Assembly: GCA_017539165.1 (NCBI GenBank)
Contig: JAFYHN010000098.1
Span: 1 to 64,000 of the forward strand
Reading direction: 5' to 3'
Length of the DNA: 64,000 nucleotides
Source of the DNA: Eubacterium sp.
Lineage (GTDB): Bacteria; Bacillota; Clostridia; Lachnospirales; Lachnospiraceae
Both the position numbers and the translations under genes were made by a program. This document shows, one piece after another, positions 5,545 to 43,187 of the stretch. The notes below the pieces were generated by a model. That model did not search any database. It saw nothing but the letters and a program-made list of their open reading frames with translations, and had not been told where the DNA came from. Positions within the stretch are counted from its first letter, which is position 1. Each line of letters starts with the position of its first letter.

Positions 5545-5937
5545 TTATAGTCTTCTTCTGTATCTCTGGGTAAGCCTTAAAATTTCCCGCGAACGTTTCA
5601 TATGAACACATCCGAATTTGTCAATAAAATTCACAAAGCCAAGATTCACGACACAAAATTTATTGATTCGAACAAGATTCATAACTCCTCTATTCATAAG
5701 TTTTCTTTTTGCAATCCTTGGTTCCAGAACCATTTCTCTATCAGGAAAATATATCTTATATACTTTTGAATGTGTGTCAATCCTCACAATATCCGTTATA
5801 ACATGTGGAGAATTCTTCCATGTTCTGTTAAATCCCCTTTTAACATGACACCTATTGAAACGATCAACAAGTATTATGATCGCATCTATAATCTCGACTA
5901 TGTTCTCATTATCGAATGTCAACCTTTCTTTCATCAT
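5545..5937 (-). CDS. Stand-alone LytTR-type DNA-binding protein
   Basis: A 130-residue protein whose residues from about 45 onward fit a LytTR domain: an ITDIVRIDTHSKVYKIYF strand pair, then the hallmark LVRINKFCVVNLGFVNFID (normally FxRIHKSYxVNLxxI), then a basic C-terminus RLTQRYRRRL. The first 45 residues are not a receiver domain, so it is not a classical two-component regulator. The start is one of two adjacent ATGs (5935-5937 or 5932-5934) after a run of six G. The frame stays open further upstream, but that stretch encodes the preceding terminator. LytTR proteins usually bind paired direct repeats about two helical turns apart; such pairs occur at 32.4 and 43.2 kb here. Confidence 0.72.
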   Translation of the reverse strand: MMKERLTFDNENIVEIIDAIIILVDRFNRCHVKRGFNRTWKNSPHVITDIVRIDTHSKVYKIYFPDREMVLEPRIAKRKLMNRGVMNLVRINKFCVVNLGFVNFIDKFGCVHMKRSREILRLTQRYRRRL

Positions 5938-28128: not shown

Positions 28129-28785
28129 TTACTGTTCTTTTGTTTCATTATCTACACATTTATGTTCTTCGACAGTTAAAATATTATACTTATTGTCATA
28201 TGTCACAGCACTATATGAATTATCATCCCCTCTATATTCATAACAATATTCACCTGTTTTCTTCCAGGTAGACTCTATATCATTATAACCAATATACTTT
28301 TCAAAATCCTCGTCAAAACATTTACATATATAAAATTTTGTATTTGGATTTATATATTCGTCGGTTATCATAATTCCGTAACAAAAATAGTTTTCCTCGT
28401 CAACATCTAAACACTCCCCAACTTCATTTGCTAACTTTTCAAGGTCAAATACCATGAAATGACAATCAAAATAGCTTTTTCCATACGAACTTATATATTT
28501 ATCATCATCAGGATACATTTCCTTAAAATTATCAGGATTATATATCCTACACTTTTTAAGCATTTCAATCATTTCTTCATCGTCTATTGTTTCATCATCA
28601 CCATCATATTCTATAGTATCATCAATCTCATCTTGTAGATAGAGAAAATCATCTGTTTCCTGATTAGAATATGGAGTATTAGTCTCTCTATCAAAATTAG
28701 TCATTGCATTTGACGGTATTGCCATCATAAAAGAAACTAAAATAGATAATCCTAGTCCCATTCCAACACATTTCAAATTTCTCAT
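28129..28785 (-). CDS. Secreted acidic protein, unknown function
   Basis: 218 residues with a signal peptide (MRNLKCVGMGLGLSILVSFM, cleavage near SNA), then a strongly acidic stretch (about 30-65, with many Asp/Glu) and a domain with CHFMVFDLEKLANEV, TKFYICKCFDEDFEKYIGYN and YSAVTYDNKYNILTVEE. Cysteines are frequent. The ATG at 28783-28785 is used because AAGGAG lies 9 nt upstream; an in-frame GTG further up overlaps that site. A decayed paralogue follows immediately upstream at 28935-29340. Confidence 0.72.
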   Translation of the reverse strand: MRNLKCVGMGLGLSILVSFMMAIPSNAMTNFDRETNTPYSNQETDDFLYLQDEIDDTIEYDGDDETIDDEEMIEMLKKCRIYNPDNFKEMYPDDDKYISSYGKSYFDCHFMVFDLEKLANEVGECLDVDEENYFCYGIMITDEYINPNTKFYICKCFDEDFEKYIGYNDIESTWKKTGEYCYEYRGDDNSYSAVTYDNKYNILTVEEHKCVDNETKEQ

Positions 28786-28934
28786 AATATAATTCTCCTT
28801 CACTAAAGCATTTTTACTAGGTTTTAACGCCTAAGTTATTTGATACGTACAATATATCAACCCATAAAAACAAATTGTCTACAAAAAAGATAATTTTTAT
28901 AATCGTTTTATTATCCAAATAGTATCATCATCAA

Positions 28935-29340
28935 TTATATTGCTCCCCAAAAGCTAAAGTTATGCAATATTTGAGCATTCAAACGATATATAGCTTGTAA
29001 TATTCTTTTTTCTCTATCATAAGAAACTATAATGTGTTCTCCATCTCTATATACTTCAAAATTACAATCTATACATTCCGCAGGTTCCATATAGTTTAAA
29101 TATACATCATAATCCTTCTCGCTGCATTTACAAATATAAGTTTTAACAGATGAATCTATTTCACTCATAGCAACAATGCCATAATCAAATATATTATAAT
29201 CTTCATCTGCATAAATCCCACAAGATTATACTGATTTAGAACTCTTAAATCCCCTACATAAAAATGGTAATCATTTATCATTTTTCAGCCTCTTCTTTAA
29301 TGTAATCATCAAGATTGTTTACATTGTGAAGTCTAAAGAC
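28935..29340 (-). pseudogene. Remnant of a paralogue of the 218-residue secreted protein
   Basis: Translating the minus strand in three frames recovers successive pieces matching the neighbour at 28129-28785. FRLHNVNNLDDYIKEEAEK corresponds to its CRIYNPDNFKEMY region. NDYHFYVGDLRVLNQYN corresponds to FDCHFMVFDLEKL. SCGIYADEDYNIFDYGIV, running on through VKTYICKCSEKDYDVYLNY and IVSYDREKRILQAIYRLN, corresponds to the C-terminal half. The pieces lie in different frames separated by stops, and the signal peptide and acidic N-terminus are missing, since the remnant begins right after the stop of the ChW gene at 29343. The longest intact piece is 77 codons (28935-29168); expression is doubtful. 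Confidence 0.7.
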
Positions 29341-29342
29341 AA

Positions 29343-29963
29343 CTATCTAAACCACCTAAAAAACCAATGATAATGTTTATGATTAGTTTCTTCTTCAGTT
29401 TCTTTCGGTACTAATTTTACGTTTATTGCTTCTATAAATTGATATTTATCTCCACAGGAAGCGTAACCATCTTTTACCCAATCTGTCCATCCTTCATTCT
29501 TCGCATAAACCCTATACACTATATCATAATGCTCACCGATTTCACCTGTAAGATCAAATGACACCTGTGACAACGGATCTGGTTTATCTATAACACCACA
29601 CATATCACTCATAATCCCGCAAGGCGAATCAATAGAATGACGAGACAGTTTACCATCATACAATTTACCTTCAACACCAATGATTAATGCATGAACTCCT
29701 CCTTCATACGGAGAATCCATTATGCCTACCTTAAATGCTTTTAAATATCCTCCCTGATCAATCATACCAACTGATCCATCTTGATTCACATCAGTCCAAC
29801 CAAGACCGGGAATATATCCCTGTATATATACTTTAGGTTCTTTAACTTGTTTCTTATGGCATGCCTCAACGCCCGGCATTTCAGCAGCAAACACCCCCAA
29901 AAACACAACAAATGTAAATATAAATGATATTATTCTTTTATTCTTTTTACTCAACAGCTTCAT
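29343..29963 (-). CDS. Secreted ChW-repeat protein (paralogue 4 of 4)
   Basis: 206 residues: signal peptide (MKLLSKKNKRIISFIFTFVV), then two ChW-type repeats (clostridial hydrophobic, conserved Trp). Repeat one is GYIPGLGWTDVNQDGS with LKAFKVGI, repeat two YRVYAKNEGWTDWVKDG with FIEAINVKLV. Between them lies CGIMSDMCG, the Cys-x6-Cys core shared by all four paralogues. It ends in a His/Trp tail. ChW repeats occur in secreted or surface proteins of clostridia and are thought to act in adhesion. ATG 29961-29963 follows GGAGG by 5 nt. A terminator separates it from the previous ChW gene, so it depends on read-through or an unseen promoter. Confidence 0.8.
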   Translation of the reverse strand: MKLLSKKNKRIISFIFTFVVFLGVFAAEMPGVEACHKKQVKEPKVYIQGYIPGLGWTDVNQDGSVGMIDQGGYLKAFKVGIMDSPYEGGVHALIIGVEGKLYDGKLSRHSIDSPCGIMSDMCGVIDKPDPLSQVSFDLTGEIGEHYDIVYRVYAKNEGWTDWVKDGYASCGDKYQFIEAINVKLVPKETEEETNHKHYHWFFRWFR

Positions 29964-29993
29964 AAATACCTCCAGTATAAATAATTTTAAATT

Positions 29994-30021
29994 CCCCTTG
30001 TCAGAATTTACTGACAAGGGG
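29994..30021 (-). terminator. Terminator between the third and fourth ChW genes
   Basis: A perfect 11-bp stem (CCCCTTGTCAG and complement) with a 6-nt loop, followed on the minus strand by AATTTAAAATTATTT. The tail is T-poor at first, so it may be partial. Confidence 0.65.
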
Positions 30022-30081
30022 GAGTAATTGATGATTTTATAGTAATCAATAAGTTCCCACATTTATCCTCTTCAAAAAGAC

Positions 30082-30771
30082 TTATCTTTCTTTTATTGCT
30101 TCTTTCAGTGCTAAACCTTCAAATTTTCCCGGATATTCTTCTAAAGCACCTGTATATATAGTACCTATTTTTTTAAGATCTTTAAACTGAACTATATTCA
30201 AAAACTGATTTTTTGTAACACCAAGACTTACCAGATGAGCTTCGATAGCTTCAATCTTTCCGCTTTTACCACGAGCTTCAGCACCATTCTTAACCCACTC
30301 AGTCCAGCCTTCACCTGTAACAAAAACTCTATAAACAACGTCATATCTCAGGGCAATATCGCCACCAAGATCCATTGATATAGCATAAACAGGCTGACAT
30401 AATCCTGTGGTTCCACAGCACTCAGACATAGTACCACACTTAGCAGTCTGATAATATCTTTTACCATTATTACTATCAACTTTTACCATAACATTTCCGC
30501 CAATAGTTGTATTCTTAATTCCAACCTTTACAGCCTCGAGTCTCCACTGATGATCGATTGTACCGGCAAATCCCTCACATACTTCTGCTGTCCAACCAAG
30601 TTTCTCAACATGTGGTTGAATGTAAAGTTGTGGATAACTCGCTTTAACAGCAGCAACTTCAGCTGCATCTACGGATGAAATATCTGTAGTCACAAATCCA
30701 AACAGAATTGCAGCTGCAAATGCAATAGCTAATATACTTTTAATTGTTTTTGATTTTTTCAATACCTTCAT
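30082..30771 (-). CDS. Secreted ChW-repeat protein (paralogue 3 of 4)
   Basis: 229 residues with a signal peptide (MKVLKKSKTIKSILAIAFAA, cleavage near VDA), ChW repeat one (YIQPHVEKLGWTAEV ... RLEAVKVGI), the core CGTMSECCGTTGLCQP with one extra Cys pair, ChW repeat two (YRVFVTGEGWTEWVKNG ... KIEAIEAHLV), and about 40 extra C-terminal residues not seen in its neighbours. The ATG at 30769-30771 follows GGAGG by 5 nt; an earlier ATG contains that site and is not used. Confidence 0.82.
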   Translation of the reverse strand: MKVLKKSKTIKSILAIAFAAAILFGFVTTDISSVDAAEVAAVKASYPQLYIQPHVEKLGWTAEVCEGFAGTIDHQWRLEAVKVGIKNTTIGGNVMVKVDSNNGKRYYQTAKCGTMSECCGTTGLCQPVYAISMDLGGDIALRYDVVYRVFVTGEGWTEWVKNGAEARGKSGKIEAIEAHLVSLGVTKNQFLNIVQFKDLKKIGTIYTGALEEYPGKFEGLALKEAIKER

Positions 30772-30831
30772 AAACGCCTCCATAAATATAAGAAAACTAT
30801 AAAATCATCAAATCATTAATATAGTAAAAAT

Positions 30832-31410
30832 TTAATACCTATCACTTGATACACCCTGCAAAACAAGTTTTGCTTCTACAGCTTCAATCTGCTGCCAATT
30901 CTTTCCATGAGCCAGTCCTCCATTTTTAAACCATGAAGACCAACCTTCATTTGTAGTATAAACTCTGTATTCTACACTATATAACGATGCAATATCGCCC
31001 CAAAGTAATAAGTTCATGGACATAATCGGTTGTGACTGACCTACAGTTCCACAATAATCCGTCATATTTCCACATTTAGCACTTTGTGAATACTGTTCTG
31101 TATTTCCATTTACATATACGTTGATTCCACCACTAAACCTCGAATTATATACTCCCGCTTTCAAGGCTTCTAATCTCAGTCCACGCCCAGTCGTACCAGC
31201 GACTTCGGATGTTACACTCATCCAACCTTCAGATTGCATATTAGCCTGAAGCTTAATTATTGGCTCATTTGTCACTTTAGGGAATGGCTTAGCTGATACA
31301 GTAGAGGGCATTTTCGGCACTTCAAATGTCAGCATCACAAATAGAGTCAATAATGCAAAGAATACATATACCACTTTCTTATGTTTTTTTGATATGTTTA
31401 TCCCTCTCAT
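30832..31410 (-). CDS. Secreted ChW-repeat protein (paralogue 2 of 4)
   Basis: 192 residues: basic N-terminus and signal or anchor helix (about 12-30), ChW repeat one (LQANMQSEGWMSVTSEVAGT with LRLEALKAGV), the core KCGNMTDYCGTVGQSQP, and ChW repeat two (YRVYTTNEGWSSWFKNGG with IEAVEAKLV). ATG 31408-31410 follows GGGAGG. It is 56 nt after paralogue 1 with no terminator between, so the two probably share a transcript. Confidence 0.82.
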   Translation of the reverse strand: MRGINISKKHKKVVYVFFALLTLFVMLTFEVPKMPSTVSAKPFPKVTNEPIIKLQANMQSEGWMSVTSEVAGTTGRGLRLEALKAGVYNSRFSGGINVYVNGNTEQYSQSAKCGNMTDYCGTVGQSQPIMSMNLLLWGDIASLYSVEYRVYTTNEGWSSWFKNGGLAHGKNWQQIEAVEAKLVLQGVSSDRY

Positions 31411-31466: not shown

Positions 31467-32201
31467 TTATTTGGTTGGTGAAACGATAAAACTATTCGTA
31501 TCTGGTTCTCGTCCATCTTGTTGAATTATTGGAGGATAAGGTTCCGGAACCGGGATAGGATCAATAATAAGCGGATAATGAGGTGCTCTTTTATTACGTA
31601 CAAGTCTAACCTCTAAAGCCTCAATTCGTTGATATTTACTACCTTTAGCAAATTCAAAATTTTTAACCCAAGGTTTCCAGCCTTCATCCTGCACATGTAC
31701 TCTATATTCAATATCATAATAGTTTTTTATTTCCCCTTTAAGCTCTAATGATATTGCTGCAATTGGTTGTGATTTTCCTACAGTACCACATTGTTTTGAC
31801 ATTTCTCCACATTTAACAATTATATAATCCTTATATACACCACCTGTAGATGTATAACCTATAACAGTAGCCCTTAATTCACCTTCGTAAGATCCTTCTC
31901 GAGGTATATATATATCAGGATCATTATTAGGCATTATCCCAATCTTAAATGCTTCCAGTCTTAATGATTTCCCTGTAGTTCCAATAAGACCTTCAGTTGT
32001 CTCATCCATCCAGCCAATGTTTTGAACATGACCTTGCAGATGAACTATCGGATCAGGATATGGATAATAAGGTGGAACAGTTGCATGGACAGTTGATATA
32101 CCATTCGGCTTATAAACTGCCAGCATCATGAATAGAATAATCAAGGCAAGTAATAAAGAAATGATTTTGGTCTTTTTACACATTTTTTTCATTACCTTCA
32201 T
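31467..32201 (-). CDS. Secreted ChW-repeat protein (paralogue 1 of 4)
   Basis: 244 residues: basic N-terminus, hydrophobic signal segment (about 12-32), a Tyr/Pro-rich spacer (TVPPYYPYPDP), ChW repeat one (LQGHVQNIGWMDETTEGLIG, LRLEAFKIGI), an insert, the core VKCGEMSKQCGTVGKSQP, ChW repeat two (YRVHVQDEGWKPWVKNFEFA, RIEALEVRLV), and a Pro-rich C-terminal tail (about 205-244). ATG 32199-32201 follows GGAGG by 5 nt. It is the first gene of the ChW cluster, downstream of the direct-repeat promoter at 32331-32398. Confidence 0.82.
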   Translation of the reverse strand: MKVMKKMCKKTKIISLLLALIILFMMLAVYKPNGISTVHATVPPYYPYPDPIVHLQGHVQNIGWMDETTEGLIGTTGKSLRLEAFKIGIMPNNDPDIYIPREGSYEGELRATVIGYTSTGGVYKDYIIVKCGEMSKQCGTVGKSQPIAAISLELKGEIKNYYDIEYRVHVQDEGWKPWVKNFEFAKGSKYQRIEALEVRLVRNKRAPHYPLIIDPIPVPEPYPPIIQQDGREPDTNSFIVSPTK

Positions 32202-32265
32202 AGGCACCTCCGTAAGTATAAAAATTTTATAAAAAAATCAGTTTATTGACATTTTTCGTTCTATA

Positions 32266-32292
32266 AACAAAAAAAATCAGGAAAACTGATTT
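32266..32292 (-). terminator. Leader terminator or attenuator before the ChW cluster
   Basis: On the minus strand AAATCAG, a TTTTC loop, CTGATTT, then a run of T (eight in the uninterrupted T tract including stem bases). It lies about 32-58 nt after the predicted start site of the 32331 promoter and 65 nt before the first ChW ATG. It would therefore end a transcript of about 60 nt unless antiterminated. Confidence 0.55.
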
Positions 32293-32330
32293 CCCAAATA
32301 CTTTTATAACCTTCGTTATGCCCCACTCGT

Positions 32331-32359
32331 ATTTTATAATTTCTACATAAATCACTCAA
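32331..32359 (-). promoter_or_regulatory. Predicted promoter upstream of the ChW cluster
   Basis: TTGAGT, 17 bp, TAAAAT on the minus strand. The paired GTCGTTCAC repeats lie exactly 10 bp upstream of the -35 box. This region (32202-32555, 354 nt) holds no gene: from the right it contains the ATPase terminator, the repeats, this promoter, and the leader hairpin. Confidence 0.6.
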
Positions 32360-32369
32360 TAATGAGTTA

Positions 32370-32398
32370 GTGAACGACACATTTATTGAGTGAACGAC
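32370..32398 (-). promoter_or_regulatory. Paired direct-repeat operator R1 (LytTR-like geometry)
   Basis: GTCGTTCAC occurs twice on the minus strand (32370-32378 and 32390-32398) with starts 20 bp apart. The same arrangement recurs at 43159-43187. Two same-direction sites two helical turns apart, just upstream of a -35 box, are typical of LytTR-domain activators; which protein binds is inferred. Confidence 0.6.
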
Positions 32399-42948: not shown

Positions 42949-43083
42949 TTATTCTTTTATATCTTCGCTATCATTAGTATTCTCGTCATCGTTTTGGTCT
43001 TCTTTTTTACTATATAGATTTTTAGTAGTCAAAAGAGCTCCCACTAAAGCTAAACCTATACAAATCCATAATGTTCTGTCCAT
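42949..43083 (-). CDS. 44-residue single-helix membrane peptide
   Basis: Begins MDRTLWICIGLALVGALLTT, a single membrane helix, followed by KNLYSKKEDQNDDENTND and an acidic tail ending DIKE. No family recognised. It is convincing as a gene for three reasons. ATG 43081-43083 has GGAGG 10 nt upstream; a consensus TATAAT promoter with the R2 paired repeats lies 36-100 nt before it; and strong terminators bracket the unit. Its size and layout would suit a signalling or regulatory membrane peptide, but that is inference. Confidence 0.65.
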   Translation of the reverse strand: MDRTLWICIGLALVGALLTTKNLYSKKEDQNDDENTNDSEDIKE

Positions 43084-43118: not shown

Positions 43119-43148
43119 ATTATATAAGTCTGTTATGTCATCATACAA
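43119..43148 (-). promoter_or_regulatory. Predicted promoter of the 44-residue peptide gene
   Basis: TTGTAT, 18 bp, TATAAT on the minus strand, with the R2 repeats exactly 10 bp upstream of the -35 box, as at the ChW promoter. Confidence 0.65.
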
Positions 43149-43158
43149 GTGCTATCTA

Positions 43159-43187
43159 GTGAACGACATATTTTTTTGATGAACGAC
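43159..43187 (-). promoter_or_regulatory. Paired direct-repeat operator R2 (LytTR-like geometry)
   Basis: GTCGTTCAC (43159-43167) and GTCGTTCAT (43179-43187) on the minus strand with starts 20 bp apart; flanking bases (TATGTCGTTCA) are also shared with R1. Confidence 0.6.

Follow-up and report, generated by a model that had tools for sequence, protein, structure and literature searches.

Known peptide-sensing systems built around a membrane kinase include those whose signal derives from AgrD or double-glycine precursors. Lachnospiraceae-type bacteria are prominent in the rumen and gut, and ORFs as short as those described below are usually left unannotated as genes. Quorum-sensing peptides that lack a leader have been described together with cytosolic RopB receptors (PMC10518010). 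Published LytTR sites consist of two repeats of 9-11 nucleotides that lie 11-13 bp apart, according to PMC4847170, and PMC6193735 describes a placement biased to 10 bp upstream of the -35 element.

The stretch of Eubacterium sp. DNA that we analyzed (the window, 64,000 nucleotides in all) carries two promoters of this kind, R1 and R2 (Table 1). The earlier note had described R1 as a pair of 9-mers followed by 10 bp and a -35/-10 pair, and had pointed to a second copy of the same construction. Both were confirmed, and both lie on the minus strand. The 9-mers of R1 are identical, with starts 20 bp apart. The proposed LytTR-type layout likewise stands, since 9-bp direct repeats, an 11-bp spacer and a distance of 10 bp to the -35 element fit the published arrangements. 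When up to three mismatches are allowed, the paired pattern has two matches in the window versus a shuffle mean of 0.04, and 0 of 100 shuffles reached two. Single half-sites show no enrichment in the window: with at most one mismatch allowed, 20 were seen versus an expected 17.9. It is the paired arrangement that stands out, and not the individual 9-mer.

Table 1. Features of the window and operator sites elsewhere in the same genome (entries with a C handle are positions in the genome; all others are positions in the window)
Feature	Position	Strand	Details
LytTR-type operator R1 (site C89:32370)	32370..32398	-	GTCGTTCAC-N11-GTCGTTCAC; boxes 32390-32398 and 32370-32378
Promoter R1	32331..32359	-	TTGAGT-17-TAAAAT (32354-32359 and 32331-32336); -35 exactly 10 bp past box 2
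LytTR-type operator R2 (site C89:43159)	43159..43187	-	GTCGTTCAT-N11-GTCGTTCAC; boxes 43179-43187 and 43159-43167, then 10 bp
Promoter R2	43119..43148	-	TTGTAT-18-TATAAT (43143-43148 and 43119-43124)
First ChW-repeat protein	31467..32201	-	PF07538, E 2.6e-20; start codon 197 nt from operator start
Second ChW protein	30832..31410	-	PF07538; paralogue of first, E 1.1e-13
Third ChW protein	30082..30783	-	PF07538; paralogue of first, E 2.3e-10
Fourth ChW-like paralogue	29343..30062	-	E 5.5e-9 to first; no Pfam match
Possible weak hairpin with U-run, ChW leader	32262..32300	-	attenuator-like, uncertain
44-aa ORF	42949..43083	-	one hydrophobic segment; putative R2 target
Regulator proposed in the earlier note	5545..5937	-	weakly LytTR-like; cognate role unsupported
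Operator site	C22:122047		
Operator site	C31:172		
Operator site	C44:40862		
Operator site	C44:64561		
Operator site	C64:38427		
Operator site	C64:38669		
Operator site	C101:90374		
Operator site	C105:48471		

The genome from which the window derives (G000; 3.2 Mb in 112 contigs) was searched for GTCGTTCAY-N11-GTCGTTCAY, with the reversed pattern as a control. Seven exact matches were found, and 10 at up to one mismatch, versus none for the control at either level. At up to three mismatches there are 20 matches (seven with none, three with one, none with two and 10 with three) versus 28 for the reversed pattern, and thus the three-mismatch class is noise. Across the genus, 8 of 61 genomes carry a total of 41 sites, with three control matches. 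The search for further copies and for conservation, which the earlier note had suggested as a way to refute the regulon, therefore leaves it standing.

A TTG is located exactly at +10 from box 2 in 24 of the 41 genus sites, in an alignment where each of two triple repeats was entered as two sites; other offsets from 4 to 17 give 0-3. The remaining 17 sites lack a TTG at +10, and the C101 site of our own genome has no visible -35 element. In the triple repeats, the third box is in register with the pair (L082:6543-6591 in G053, upstream of a peptide ORF, and L090:1480-1528 in G022). Overall, the sites have the repeat length and spacer of LytTR operators, and the placement upstream of the -35 element, mostly by 10 bp. 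R1 is most likely a LytTR-activated promoter, one of about ten in its genome, with binding predicted from these associations.

Eleven LytTR matches were identified in the genome, of which only the genes at C44 and C64 adjoin sites (three of the ten). Both are regulator/kinase pairs, with a response regulator (PF00072 and PF04397) and a GHKL histidine kinase (PF14501). The kinases of the genus have five to seven hydrophobic segments in a simple hydropathy scan and a hydrophobic N-terminal half, and the only match of the kinase profile in the PDB is the AgrC kinase module 6e52. Kinases that score above 600 bits are present in seven of the eight site-bearing genus genomes (G000, with two, and G002, G008, G022, G024, G027 and G053) versus none of the 53 siteless genomes, in which the maximum is 165 bits. 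The eighth site-bearing genome, G021, has no such kinase and is 58% complete.

In a sample of 397 genomes from the family, exact GTCGTTCA pairs were confined to G000 and four further genomes (G229, G248, G191 and G422), which belong to four other genera. A kinase match at 1e-30 is present in 92 genomes, including all five of these; the other 87, whose matches are more distant, have no exact pair. The site adjoins the kinase gene in G229, G248 and G422, and is located in G191 between genes that by eye resemble parts of an ABC transporter. This co-occurrence makes the two AgrA/AgrC-like pairs the likely regulators of the sites. Relatives of the regulator are present in 54 of 50,697 phage records, all below 60% identity.

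The C64 pair has two convergent sites upstream of the regulator, 242 bp start to start (L024:6201-7000, corresponding to G000:C64:38200-38999), and the regulator itself is a possible target. The segment between these sites yielded no short ORF preceded by a ribosome-binding site, and so C64 looks like a receptor that lacks its own signal gene. The only AgrB matches in the genome are at C79:14197-14718 and C95:114691-115176. Both are located near other LytTR genes, and therefore this bacterium may also carry ordinary agr systems.

Eight regulator/kinase loci with sites were found in the genus: C44 and C64, plus one in each of six other genomes. In all but C64, the site occupies the region from which the regulator gene and a short transcript diverge, and is oriented toward the short transcript. 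Six of the eight loci have the site upstream of a leaderless ORF of 14-22 codons with a ribosome-binding site. The ORF is not universal because C64, despite its two sites, has no recognizable peptide ORF. At the G027 locus the ribosome-binding site is present, and the corresponding frame has no ATG, GTG or TTG start.

At C44, the C44:40862 site is flanked on one side by the regulator gene and on the other by a 16-codon ORF in divergent orientation, which encodes MTRSDIFDWFRENGWP. Within 450 bp upstream of the regulator, no other short ORF has a ribosome-binding site. The other genus peptides are MIHCDILDWWRKHGWP (G008), MILCNIFEWLRNRGG (G024), MIILFNIFEWLRTL (G053), MVFFDFLDLLSWLFS (G002) and MHRTGYHSFFDYSIFSFLKSLF (G022). 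Inspection by eye revealed no double-glycine leader in any of these six peptides of 14-22 amino acids, and no exporter common to the peptide loci was identified. Shuffling indicates that an ORF with a ribosome-binding site would be expected at 0.24 of the seven divergent loci (C64 excluded) versus the six observed, and one that also includes tryptophan at 0.03 versus five. Five of the six genus peptides carry tryptophan; it is missing from the G022 peptide, and also from that of G422 outside the genus. A strong, terminator-like hairpin directly 3' of the ORF was found in all three cases that were folded. The peptide promoters have a TTG at +10 in 0 of 8 cases versus 24 of 33 at the other genus sites (p 0.0003), which suggests that they have a weaker -35 element and a tighter dependence on the activator.

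Three further observations concern short sequences in these genomes. A stretch like AAGCTATACCTACTCTTTAATCGG is seen by eye between the stop codon and the hairpin in G008, G024 and G053 (L079, L081 and L082), and is a possible RNA element. In G053, an ORF of 28 aa downstream of a site (L082:6839-6925) resembles the N-terminus of the AMP-binding enzyme encoded behind a G022 site (L085:7081-8505), and may be what is left of a former target gene. Finally, our own genome includes at L028 (G000:C32:17000-27000) a tiny ORF, MIYGDCEVVMEIVKRLFGL, behind the repeat CCCGTTTAT (22 bp apart) and near the LytTR gene C32:21721. This ORF may represent a further system, and was scored among the control ORFs in the comparison that follows.

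To cover the family (Lachnospiraceae, which we take in the GTDB sense; at NCBI, Anaerocolumna aminovalerica belongs to Lachnospiraceae and Eubacterium ruminantium to Eubacteriaceae, and the genome collection used here puts both in one family), we scanned 88 regulator/kinase loci. These comprise the eight genus loci, three further loci, and family-wide kinase regions, for which 74 were taken from about 122 places outside our own genome by hand count, with about 48 not included. L108 and L214 designate a single locus. An upstream direct repeat was scored when at least 8 of 9 bases match at a distance of 20-22 bp, and an ORF was considered near the kinase when it lies no more than 600 bp from the pair.

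Tiny ORFs that have both a tryptophan codon and an upstream direct repeat account for 19 of 49 near the kinase versus 0 of 72 elsewhere (Fisher p 2.7e-9, which treats the loci as independent although they are not). Of the 19, four come from the seven near-kinase ORFs of the genus and 15 from the 42 of other genera (14 distinct peptides); the repeats are perfect in 10. Among the 72 controls, four have a direct repeat and no tryptophan. Of these controls, 44 belong to the same loci and lie beyond the 600-bp limit, and the remaining 28 come from different loci, including five loci of our own genome with other LytTR genes, which works against the peptide interpretation. The C44 peptide itself was left out of the 49 because a longer overlapping frame hid it.

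Peptides outside the genus include MIASIDWSWLWKLFG (G229), MFNKFGKNFVLFEYDFWEWLCYILGINP (G248), MGSNNNQNARDIWSELWKWLFG (G280), MILFDLLDLLLWLFGGRR (A. aminovalerica DSM 1283) and MFGLEIILAQAGFWDWIWDILTGGKKTS (Acetatifactor sp.). Among the candidate signals listed at one stage of the survey, lengths range from 13 to 28 amino acids. The peptide core often resembles D-[IL]-x-W. In 17 of 20 selected loci outside the genus, the peptide ORF is downstream of the kinase gene and has the same direction. A related kinase (525 bits) from the class-wide kinase search belongs to G794, a member of another genus that has no GTCGTTCA pairs. Divergent from its regulator gene are the repeats GTCATTTAC-N11-GTCATTTAC and then the peptide MMYLMDIWDWLSGR, with 122 bp from the operator start to the ATG. 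In this case the distance between the ribosome-binding site and the start codon is unusually long. The automatic scan missed the peptide for that reason, and such peptide counts are lower bounds as a result. That scan covered 29 of the 30 loci obtained in the class-wide search, out of 61 places listed, with 27 of the 29 outside the family. It revealed none with both tryptophan and repeats, and its only tiny ORF with tryptophan is from a family member.

We also compared peptide similarity with that of the two kinase halves by Mantel analysis (sensor half r 0.23, kinase half r 0.22; partial p 0.11 and 0.22). The sensor half performs no better than the kinase half, and so the analysis does not separate receptor-ligand coevolution from common descent; coevolution gives no signal beyond such descent in this set. 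The 26 peptides used exclude five near-kinase short ORFs that appear spurious by eye, the 28-aa remnant of G053, two duplicate or near-duplicate loci, and ORFs with neither tryptophan nor repeats, and include L021 and L157 as additions.

R1 precedes a cluster of four tandem paralogues related to ChW-repeat proteins. This cluster is not conserved: of the other 60 genomes, four have matches to it, all of them weak. The hairpin in its leader (MFE -16.5, z -2.08, with 8 of 200 shuffles folding at least as well) is a weak candidate for an attenuator. Downstream of the ChW genes, positions 28129-29168 of the window hold two genes (77 and 224 aa) with no Pfam or PHROG match, and the 224-aa protein has an N-terminal hydrophobic segment. 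No phage families were found among four window proteins. The earlier note envisioned a small regulon that links secreted ChW proteins and a membrane peptide. The cluster and the peptide (44 aa) do belong to it, but the regulon is larger, with 10 sites and with antagonism-type genes in relatives.

The C22 site precedes the gene for an RHS-repeat protein of 3176 aa that carries a TNT domain at its C-terminus (L019:448-9978), and at the only site found in G021 (L056) the start of the downstream protein resembles the N-terminus of this RHS protein. One C44 site is directly upstream of metK, with a radical-SAM gene and then a TIM-barrel gene behind it (L022:5072-8482), and the supply of S-adenosylmethionine may therefore be co-induced with a pathway that uses it. 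Other targets in the genome are an ABC transporter operon, an ATPase and a DUF4214 protein. No clear bacteriocin is present among the targets in our own genome, and direct repeats before bacteriocin operons were seen in relatives only. In G022 one target is a mediterrocin-family bacteriocin that scores above the cut-off, and in G008 another is a DUF1430 membrane protein of a bacteriocin-associated kind (Pfam above the cut-off, NCBIfam below it). Double-glycine-type peptides, recognized by eye and with one Pfam match below the cut-off, are encoded near C39 exporters in G053 and G022, and radical-SAM genes are among the targets in G002, G008 and G022. The outputs are plausibly antagonism and surface functions.

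The sites and their spacing, the co-occurrence with a kinase family, the short ORF with its ribosome-binding site and hairpin, and the recurrence of this layout in relatives point to peptide quorum sensing with a leaderless pheromone, in which R1 would be one of about ten LytTR-activated promoters. We consider this reading probable, where binding, activation, peptide export and kinase sensing are modeled on AgrC/ComD-type architecture. Specifically, a membrane GHKL kinase would detect the extracellular peptide and phosphorylate its partner response regulator. Two regulator molecules would then bind both GTCGTTCAY boxes on one face of the DNA and recruit RNA polymerase to the -35 element ten bp downstream. 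The most likely pheromone is MTRSDIFDWFRENGWP. With an operator located between the C44 regulator gene and the ORF for this peptide, switching on the system would raise peptide output and thereby set up positive feedback. The ChW proteins, the 44-aa peptide, the RHS/TNT protein, the ABC operon, and metK with its radical-SAM gene would follow as outputs at high cell density.

With moderate confidence, we extend this proposal to the Lachnospiraceae (GTDB). In these bacteria, a tiny, leaderless and mostly tryptophan-containing pheromone encoded beside an AgrC-like kinase might be part of a widespread two-component quorum-sensing system that is autoinduced through LytTR and controls bacteriocins and antagonism genes. 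A second receptor of the C64 type, without a signal gene, could eavesdrop.

The main rival holds that the tiny peptides are outputs, namely leaderless membrane-active peptides like phenol-soluble modulins or delta-lysin, and that the kinase responds to a different cue. In its favor, the peptides are short, have no leader and contain many W, F and L residues, and their loci have no exporter or processing gene in common. There is also a parallel in Staphylococcus aureus, where the delta-lysin RNA is divergent from agr and driven by AgrA, which also controls such peptides. However, the peptide ORFs adjoin the kinase in several genera with differing gene orders, being divergent from the regulator within the genus and mostly downstream of the kinase outside it, and their sequences vary strongly among loci, as those of signals do. 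These characteristics render the output model rather unlikely in our view. Quite improbable is a model in which the short transcript is a regulatory RNA like RNAIII and its ORF is incidental. The transcripts are compact with strong 3' hairpins, three of them share the similar stretch between stop codon and hairpin noted above, and the segment between the two convergent C64 sites carries no ORF. Nevertheless, such an RNA would not account for the excess of short ORFs with ribosome-binding sites over the shuffled expectation, nor for an amino-acid pattern and an excess of tryptophan that are common across genera.

Other regulators could be considered for the same sites. Another of the eleven LytTR proteins, such as one encoded near the AgrB genes at C79 and C95, is a very improbable choice given that only the C44 and C64 genes adjoin sites and that it is their kinase family that co-occurs with them. 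The earlier note favored a stand-alone LytTR protein encoded in the same window at 5545-5937. The ORF exists, but the LytTR label is weak: the protein has no Pfam match to a LytTR or receiver domain even at E 1, and its alignment to the LytTR profile gives an hhalign E of 0.0014 (probability 17.5%). Moreover, its distribution does not follow the sites, because no match at E 1e-5 was found in any of the seven other site-bearing genomes and diverged homologues (21-28% identity) occur in seven genomes without sites. The only sites in the window are 26 kb and 37 kb away from it. We therefore reject this protein as the regulator, a role that is now scarcely credible.

If the pheromone model is correct, it provides concrete candidate signals of 15-18 amino acids in two cultured strains, the rumen isolate E. 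ruminantium FB3002, which has four sites (MVFFDFLDLLSWLFS), and A. aminovalerica DSM 1283 (MILFDLLDLLLWLFGGRR), and an operator motif for locating targets, bacteriocins included. The bacterium that carries the window appears to be related to rumen species. Such a system could also explain why some bacteriocin-type gene clusters stay silent in laboratory culture.

The operator and regulator are of a standard kind, and several described systems resemble this one in part. Like agr (AgrBDCA; Staphylococcus, Clostridia), it has an AgrC-like GHKL kinase, an AgrA-like LytTR regulator, direct-repeat sites and, in the genus, a short transcript divergent from the regulator genes. Unlike agr, it has no AgrB at C44 or C64, and its candidate signal is a tiny leaderless peptide rather than an AgrD-type precursor. 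An agr-type signal for these two pairs is disfavored because the AgrB genes are elsewhere (C79 and C95). The Pln, Spp, Blp and ComCDE systems of lactic acid bacteria share the LytTR regulator, the repeats before the -35 element, the autoinduction layout and, in relatives of our bacterium, bacteriocin-type targets. They differ in that double-glycine leaders are absent from the candidate signal here and that no C39 peptidase match was obtained for the ABC exporter near C44.

The HdrRM and BrsRM LRS systems, as described in PMC6193735, offer 9-bp repeats, spacers of 11-13 bp, the 10-bp bias, bacteriocin targets and autoregulation. However, the partner of the LytTR protein in them is a membrane inhibitor, whereas the regulator here is a receiver-LytTR protein that is paired with a kinase. 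Among the matches listed from open-licence PMC articles, we did not find a leaderless tiny peptide combined with an AgrC-like kinase in Lachnospiraceae, which is weak evidence of absence. The available text of PMC10518010, on the leaderless communication peptides of RopB, contains no mention of histidine kinases or Lachnospiraceae that we could find. In those systems, to the extent that this text covers them, a tiny leaderless ORF with a ribosome-binding site adjoins the receptor gene, as in the loci described here, but the receptor is cytosolic, whereas our candidate receptor is a membrane histidine kinase that acts with a LytTR response regulator.
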